DNA from: a virus
DNA length: 28,493 nucleotides
IMG/VR virus record: IMGVR_UViG_3300005663_002609
Location: 1 to 28,493 of that record
Direction: 5' to 3' (one strand)
Below the pieces are notes generated by a model. It made no database searches. It saw only the letters and a list, made by a program, of their open reading frames with translations, and was not told the origin of the DNA. Shown in pieces: positions 16,787 to 28,493 of this stretch; within the stretch, counting starts at the first letter, position 1, and each line of letters starts with the position of its first letter. The position numbers and the translations under genes were made by a program.

Positions 16787-16971
16787 AAGTATGCAATGAG
16801 AGAGGAAAGAAAGAGAAGACAACGACGGTGGTCGCCCCTCCGTTCTTTTTGGTTCTCGATTATGAGAACGTTTCTGAGCGACCAAGGATTTTTCGACAGG
16901 ATGGTGATGGCATGAGAAAGAAAGACGGCCACTTGATTGGTTCGGGGTCTTCCCCTCTCAAAGGAGGCATC

Positions 16972-17871
16972 ATGATTCAAGGAAACAAGTTTCAAGGAAA
17001 TCTTGAAGTCGGCATGCGTGTTTACGGCGCCCTCTACGGCGGACGTGATGGCATCATCTTCAAGATAAGGGGCGATCAAAGTCCAGAAAGTATTCGTAGT
17101 CTGGGCGGAGGTTGCGTAGTAACGGGTGGCTCAGCTACTATCGACGTTGTGTTCGCAAAAGGCACGATCAGTCGAGGCATCCCCGAGTCAATCGTTCGAG
17201 GCGTTCAGTGGAGCATCAGTGACGGCGATCTGGCCAACGAAGAAGAGATACAACACGCTCTGGCATATGCTGAACTCGAAAGCAGACGAAAAGAGATGAG
17301 TGACAAAGAAGAAGCTCAAGCGAAAGAAGAGTGTCGCAAAGCTTTTCTCGCTGCTCACCCAGAGCTAACTCCAGTAGATCCTGAAAAGTACGACTCGCTC
17401 ACTAAGGGTGGCAAGAACTTGAGACGAGAATTGAAAGACGCTTTCCCAGAAACCAAATTCTCTGTTCGATCTCGTTCTTATTCTGGTGGCGATTCAATCG
17501 ACATCAACTGGACTGACGGCCCGACGACTGAAGTAGTTGAGAAGATATCCGGCAAGTATCAACAAGGCGATTTCAACGGGATGGAAGACATTTACGAGTA
17601 CAGCAACAGCAACGTCTGGCCAGATGTTTTCGGTGGAGCAAAGTATGTAATGACTAATCGATCTTATTCGAACGAGGCTTATCTTCAAGCTGTCGCAGAA
17701 GTTGAGAAAGAGTGGGCCATCAAGCTCAAAGTTTCATACACTTCATTCAACTCTGCTTATATCTCCAATGAAGATGACAAGAATGTTGATGATGCAAGCA
17801 ACGCACGTTATTGGTCAGGAAGTCAGTTGGTCAACCGGAAGCTTTCAGAGACCGATTTCAGAAAACAATAA
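16972..17871 (+). CDS. LPD29-domain polyvalent-type protein
   Basis: This 299-aa protein begins at ATG 16972, preceded by AAAGGAGG. The N-terminal 100 residues ([18 protein letters not shown], then [15 protein letters not shown]) form a beta-rich domain often found with LPD29. The segment at about residues 146-207 ([20 protein letters not shown], then [16 protein letters not shown] and EKISGKYQ) fits the large polyvalent protein-associated domain 29. Polyvalent proteins are injected or transferred phage and conjugative-element proteins that manipulate the recipient. It lies on the strand opposite the head operon, with its own promoter. An earlier start at 16828 would have no ribosome-binding site. 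Its exact activity is unknown. Confidence 0.7.
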
Positions 17872-27949: not shown

Positions 27950-28084
27950 TACTATAACCCCTGGATTTCGGATATTTACGGAAGGTGGGTTTTTTATACC
28001 GTTGTTTTTAGGCGGGATATAAAAAAAGCGGGTAAATTACCCTCTTGACATACTTTATGTAATTTCTTTTATCTCAAAGTCTTT
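27894..28084 (-). repeat. duplicated leader/start cassette, copy B (probable parent)
   Basis: This 191-bp segment matches copy A at 16486-16679 with about 90% identity. Here it connects the intact 93-aa gene with the peptidase: last codons of the former, terminator-like hairpin, leader, ribosome-binding site, TTG start and first codons of the latter. Because both flanking genes are intact, this is likely the source of copy A. Confidence 0.9.
28021..28042 (-). terminator. weak terminator-like hairpin in copy B
   Basis: On the minus strand GGGTA and TACCC form a 5-bp stem around ATT, followed by GC and seven T residues. It lies just after the 93-aa gene. Copy A keeps the stem with one T-G wobble at 16623-16635. 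The short stem makes termination partial. Confidence 0.4.
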
Positions 28085-28336
28085 CTGATGCAACGACCTG
28101 TACCATATCTCTTTCGTGCAAATCATTGGGGATTCGAATTCCCTGACAATCCTTAATTCCTCTACAGTTATATCACCGACTACTACTTTCACCATTCTTA
28201 TTTCTCTTTTTCTCACAGCCAAAAAGCAAAATATATTGTTGTCGGAGAGAATTATCTTATATCCGTTTTTGGCCAAATCATTCCTGGCCTTTTCTTTGGC
28301 CCTTGATAATCTTTTCTTTATAGCTATATCATTCAT
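28055..28336 (-). CDS. 93-aa protein of unknown function
   Basis: The N-terminus is a basic helix (RLSRAKEKARNDLAKNGYK), followed by a beta pair (NNIFCFLAVRKREIRMVKVV), a helix (TVEELRIVREFE) and a C-terminal tail with EIWYR and FEIKEIT. The layout faintly recalls PD-(D/E)XK-type or Holliday-resolvase-like folds, but the usual Asp and Glu-x-Lys are not evident. The last codons lie inside the duplicated cassette. The start follows an array of GCCNN units by 24 bp. I cannot assign a function. Confidence 0.5.
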   Translation of the reverse strand: MNDIAIKKRLSRAKEKARNDLAKNGYKIILSDNNIFCFLAVRKREIRMVKVVVGDITVEELRIVREFESPMICTKEIWYRSLHQKDFEIKEIT

Positions 28337-28360
28337 CTAAACATGCTCTTTCTTGGTCAA

Positions 28361-28440
28361 GCCGCGCCTCGCCGTGCCTTGCCCTGCCGCGCTTCGCCAG
28401 GCCATGCCTCGCCTCGCCGCGCCCAGCCTTGCCTCGCCAT
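28361..28440. repeat. degenerate pentanucleotide array (GCCNN)16
   Basis: Sixteen consecutive 5-bp units, all in phase, keep GCC (one unit has GCT) while the next two bases vary: gc, tc, gt, tt, ct, gc, tc, ag, at, tc, tc, gc, ca, tt, tc, at. It is very GC-rich inside an AT-rich region and adjoins a poly-A stretch (28444-28470). It lies upstream of the 93-aa gene, in what would be its leader. It has no visible coding sense, since a 5-bp period drifts through all frames. Confidence 0.85.
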
Positions 28441-28493
28441 GCTTTATCAAAAAAACTCAAAAAAAAATCTTTATCATTGCGAATCCGCGCCCT

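Follow-up and report, generated by a model that had tools for sequence, protein, structure and literature searches.

What is encoded by a stretch of phage DNA in which a fixed triplet alternates with two apparently free bases, sixteen times over and in perfect register? The locus that raises this question lies at 28361-28440 of a linear virus record of 28,493 bases, the whole of which was analyzed and is termed the window hereafter. The window carries the head and packaging genes of a tailed phage (large terminase, portal and head morphogenesis), with nearly all long ORFs running on the minus strand. On the opposite strand to most of these is a 347-aa ORF (16828-17871, plus) combining the LPD29 and LPD30 polyvalent-protein domains.

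On the plus strand, the array consists of 16 in-phase 5-bp units, 15 of which start with GCC and one (at 28391) with GCT, and a further GCT unit starting at 28441 is a possible 17th. On the minus strand, which is the coding strand of the neighboring genes, it reads (NN GGC)16, i.e., (GGCNN)n, with AGC in place of GGY in two of the 17 triplets. When the 80 bases were shuffled 2000 times with dinucleotides kept, in-phase GCC triplets never exceeded 8 (mean 3.2) against the 15 observed, confirming that the GCCNN array reported in the preliminary description is real. Likewise, when up to two mismatches are allowed, the window contains 14 matches to five GGCNN units, all within or at the edges of the array (mean of 0.01 in shuffles), and TRF detects it over the same span. 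The variable positions are diverse, with 8 distinct NN among the 15 internal pairs. The array is intergenic, belongs to a minus-strand operon, has the same sense as the neighboring genes and, as had been described, sits directly upstream of a 93-aa gene, with a gap of 24 nt on the minus strand. This 93-aa ORF has no homologues among the viral contigs or the array loci fetched by then and no match to a known accessory gene, and its single-sequence fold reaches a pLDDT of only 59. Rfam gave no match, and no named phage matched the array region in BLAST.

To place the array in a wider setting, an exact scan for ten GGCNN units was used, which recovered at least 120 stretches from IMG/VR and at least 120 from bacterial and archaeal genomes. 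Among the matches listed, five or more distinct NN are seen in 115 of the 120 from viruses versus 9 of the 120 from cellular genomes; the other 111 of the latter have four or fewer and are mostly simple repeats. Thus, degenerate GGCNN arrays are typical of viruses. They occur in flanking sequence ranging from about 34% to 80% G+C, all 16 NN are represented across the collected arrays, and AA is the most frequent NN and is enriched at the 3′ end. One near-homogeneous array at a contig end (L055:6676-6751), made of GGCTC and then GGCAA repeats, is unlike the degenerate ones. Similar arrays are found deep inside many contigs and in finished phage genomes, which disposes of the earlier concern that the one in the window is an assembly artefact of the contig end. 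Where genes were called on both sides, 91 of 155 arrays lie between two genes running in the GGC direction and 19 of 155 between two running in the opposite direction, although the intergenic placement is partly true by construction because the crude gene caller masked the arrays. Read by eye, two arrays of a single locus (L018) begin 5-14 bp after a stop codon and leave 19-41 bp to the following start.

Clustering of the proteins encoded next to the arrays yielded one dominant family, present at 50 loci. An alignment of 42 of its members (mean identity 24%) keeps a glycine-rich C-terminal motif resembling GxGxFRPxFGxF; all 42 match phrog_4652, a family of unknown function, and no Pfam model gives a convincing match to the family. 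In an hmmsearch with a profile of this alignment, a single solved chain was significant, namely 36pp, the "SUSP1 Vipr protein" (E = 1.4e-39, residues 1-189). The AlphaFold model of one member (L076; pLDDT 93.7) finds its best Foldseek matches in Csm and type VII complexes, with E-values of 4e-6 for the Csm3/Cas7 chains, to which it aligns in VIA-align over 157 residues with Z = 12.3 and an rmsd of 4.2 Å. Hence, the members of the dominant neighbor family are Vipr homologues with a predicted Cas7/Csm3-type RAMP fold.

Such a homologue is present in 89 of the 119 array-bearing records (42/50, 34/50 and 13/19 in the sets searched); as the profile was built from 42 of these 89 records, the independent share is 47 of the remaining 77. 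Among 32 viral records selected with an unrelated pattern, and among three with homogeneous repeats, none has a Vipr homologue. The known phages VpaE1 and Trine, which served as positive controls, have GGY/NN arrays adjoining their Vipr gene. The preliminary description had raised the possibility that the array always lies upstream of one gene family: this comes close, in that the arrays of the relatives flank one gene, although it is vipr, on either side of it, and not the 93-aa gene, for which no relatives were recovered. In three records (G053, G094 and G140, those of L021, L064 and L110), the Vipr homologue contains one in-frame TAG or TGA, for which broken genes, sequencing errors and stop-codon recoding are candidate explanations. 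A second array-adjoining family (L047:8179-8646 and 20 further non-redundant members), with an FEWDD...AAxxYRxxQAR motif, corresponds to phrog_15946, also of unknown function; together with other array neighbors, such as ParB-like and winged-helix-like proteins, it probably represents accessory genes.

It was this neighbor protein that led us to the description of the Viral Interference Programmable Repeat (VIPR) systems (PMC13142463; bioRxiv 2026.04.26.720920), a literature search by motif name alone having returned no match. These systems combine Vipr, a small RAMP protein, with vrRNAs of 9-16 YNNGG repeats that have a constant GGY and a hypervariable NN (PMC13142463). Two bases of double-stranded DNA are read by each NN pair, and the one base between successive pairs, usually the codon wobble base, is skipped; the targets are mostly satellites and prophages (PMC13142463). 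That study demonstrated repression in E. coli. For other phages, it showed that vrRNAs are expressed and bound by Vipr, established the one-base skip and found repression, and for Escherichia phage SUSP1 it found that NN changes in the vrRNAs alter the DNA target.

The array of the window fits this description in its tandem 5-nt GGY/NN organization, its 16 units, its hypervariable NN and its intergenic, sense-strand location in a phage, and in its relatives the neighboring gene is homologous to Vipr. It differs in that its triplets are GGC only, plus one or two AGC units, in that the downstream gene is the 93-aa orphan, and in that the 28.5-kb window has no vipr gene. On the strength of the GGY/NN match and the Vipr-homologous neighbors of its relatives, we are confident that the array represents the guide portion of a VIPR vrRNA that an uncultivated tailed phage encodes on its minus strand (Table 1). 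A structured 3′ tail would have little room in the 24 nt before the next gene; in the relatives, such tails vary widely, and several of them are likewise short-spaced.

Table 1. Features at the array end of the window and the observations on which they are based.
Position	Strand	Feature	Basis
28030..28042	-	Terminator-like hairpin with a trailing T run, 3′ of the 93-aa ORF	Weak: one found versus 0.7 expected in shuffles
28055..28336	-	93-aa ORF, orphan; possible accessory (vap) or unrelated gene	Low-confidence fold
28337..28360	-	Spacer from array to start codon, 24 nt; would contain the 3′ tail of the vrRNA or its beginning, as well as the ribosome-binding site	
28361..28440	-	Putative vrRNA guide region, 16 NN-GGC units, AGC at 28391-28395	Unit count, shuffles, minus-strand reading
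28441..28445	-	Imperfect leading unit AGC, possible 17th unit	Minus-strand reading
28446..28474	-	T-rich leader on the 5′ side of the array in sense orientation (the poly-A tract of the preliminary description)	
28485..28493	-	AGGGCGCGG at the contig end, possible last units of a second upstream array	Nine letters

The missing vipr gene has to be set against the position of the contig end, which is only 53 bp from the array and on its upstream, sense-direction side, where vipr would be expected. A second array, of which the nine letters AGGGCGCGG on the minus strand would be the end, could explain why the assembly stopped there. No contig extending the record was found with the exact 24-mer from its end, and the search for relatives through the terminase gave one 4-kb fragment, 88% identical, which is without the array region. 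The absence of vipr from 28.5 kb would also be expected of an orphan vrRNA, i.e., a guide whose Vipr is supplied in trans by a helper phage, a prophage or the host, or which is a decaying remnant of a complete system. Of the 119 array-bearing records, 30 show no Vipr, many of them fragments and some of them long contigs, and satellites encoding vrRNAs have been reported (PMC13142463). Nevertheless, we consider an orphan unlikely, given that the contig ends at a frequent location of vipr and that the array is near-perfect, with no decay of the kind that a remnant would display. Separately, six array-bearing contigs measuring 20-48 kb (L014, L022, L056, L069, L077 and L101) yielded no Vipr homologue and are candidates for orphan guides or for divergent Vipr proteins.

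The wobble-skip rule predicts that NN usage should resemble the first two codon positions, which allows the code to be tested without targets. Across all the collected arrays, NN usage is best fitted by codon positions 1-2 of the sense strand (KL 0.10, r 0.49), as opposed to KL values of 0.15-0.33 for positions 2-3, 3-1 or any reverse-strand pair. The window array behaves similarly, with a log-likelihood of -38.1 for codon positions 1-2, -40.4 or worse for the others and -41.6 for a uniform model. This composition fits guides copied from coding sequence with the wobble base skipped, as a correlation rather than a proof. In the one-skip reading, the guide of the window becomes the codon-like string ATn GAn AAn TGn GCn GAn GAn ATn CTn GAn GCn AGn AAn ACn GAn GCn, and the coding sequence aimed at would read [IM][DE][NK][CW]A[DE][DE][IM]L[DE]A[SR][NK]T[DE]A[FL]. 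The decoded string may resemble small terminase subunits; the window's own protein adjoining the terminase is different. The variant of the orphan reading in which the guide borrows Vipr from another element and is aimed at a coding sequence for this peptide, perhaps a packaging gene of a competitor, appears quite improbable to us.

In the viral contigs, the exact 12-unit one-skip pattern has no match, three 8-unit blocks give 23, 9 and 96 matches, which is chance level, and the best extension of these agrees at 25 of 34 positions, not convincingly beyond chance. The decoded peptide had no tblastn match, and for none of 311 arrays, compared at skips of 0-3 with their shuffled order, did the sequences fetched by then include a convincing target.

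The same NN statistics bear on three readings that dispense with a guide. First, the array might be translated: it is open on the minus strand with an ATG at 28440 and would encode the small protein MARQGWARRGEAWPGEARQGKARRGAA. The argument that a coding repeat must have a period of three is wrong in this case, as units of 5 bp, when translated, repeat every 15 bp or 5 aa. However, a GGCNN array has no stop codon in any frame as long as NN is not TA, which makes the openness uninformative; TA is about as common in the relatives as in codon-pair usage (0.033 versus 0.024), and unit number and phase vary freely. We regard a coding role as extremely unlikely. Second, adenine-targeted mutagenesis of a (GGCAA)n ancestor, in the style of diversity-generating retroelements, would account for the prevalence and 3′ enrichment of AA and for the nearly homogeneous GGCAA array of L055. 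Against this, no reverse transcriptase was found among the window proteins scanned, NN composition follows codons and the published mechanism already explains the pattern; we regard such an origin as extremely unlikely. A mutational process acting on NN, as suggested in the preliminary description, is unnecessary if these bases are the guide information. Third, the array could be a ladder of regulator sites, bound by a TRAP-like RNA ring protein or by a DNA-binding protein at each half turn, or folding as an RNA into two-tier G-quadruplexes, which GG at every fifth nucleotide could permit. In the TRAP geometry, a fixed triplet is likewise spaced by 2 nt; TRAP-site ladders have another triplet, no RAMP protein and free bases without information. 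A regulator ladder leaves both the hypervariable, codon-like NN and the link to a Cas7-like gene unexplained, and we hold it to be very improbable.

Much of the original view of a fixed triplet with a free dinucleotide survives in the VIPR reading, namely that it reflects a selected ladder produced by neither slippage nor coding and is possibly an RNA near phage genes. What changes is where the meaning resides: the constant triplet would be a scaffold for the RAMP protein and the free NN the information, together constituting a non-contiguous guide. Outside VIPR, a close comparison is with Class 1 CRISPR-Cas, with its Cas7/Csm3 backbone and crRNA: the neighbor protein of the relatives shares the predicted RAMP fold (Z 12), and the function published for Vipr is likewise to recognize DNA under RNA guidance. 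Unlike those systems, the arrays lack identical repeats and long unique spacers, the guide letters being scattered two by two, and no cas1, cas2 or multi-gene effector was seen. A CRISPR array as such is ruled out by the 5-bp units with two free bases.

Following the published model, we propose that transcription of the vrRNA of the window would run the same way as that of the phage genes. Copies of Vipr, a Cas7-related RAMP protein with a single RRM that is most likely encoded just past the contig end, would line up along this RNA on the GGC triplets. The NN pairs would remain available for pairing with double-stranded DNA, one target base being skipped from each pair to the next, and the bound complex would silence a gene in a competing phage or a satellite. 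The variable letters together probably spell the address of such a target, probably in a competing phage.

VIPR, a phage-borne system related to CRISPR, was already described in 2026, and the array of the window is a new, incomplete member from an uncultivated phage with its protein gene out of view. It nonetheless constitutes an independent find of a class of RNA-guided DNA recognition that was made known only months ago and is maybe older than CRISPR, and the plain pattern GGCNN with at least five distinct NN finds VIPR systems. As the code is known, each array may be read as an address, making phage-phage interactions predictable from sequence alone.
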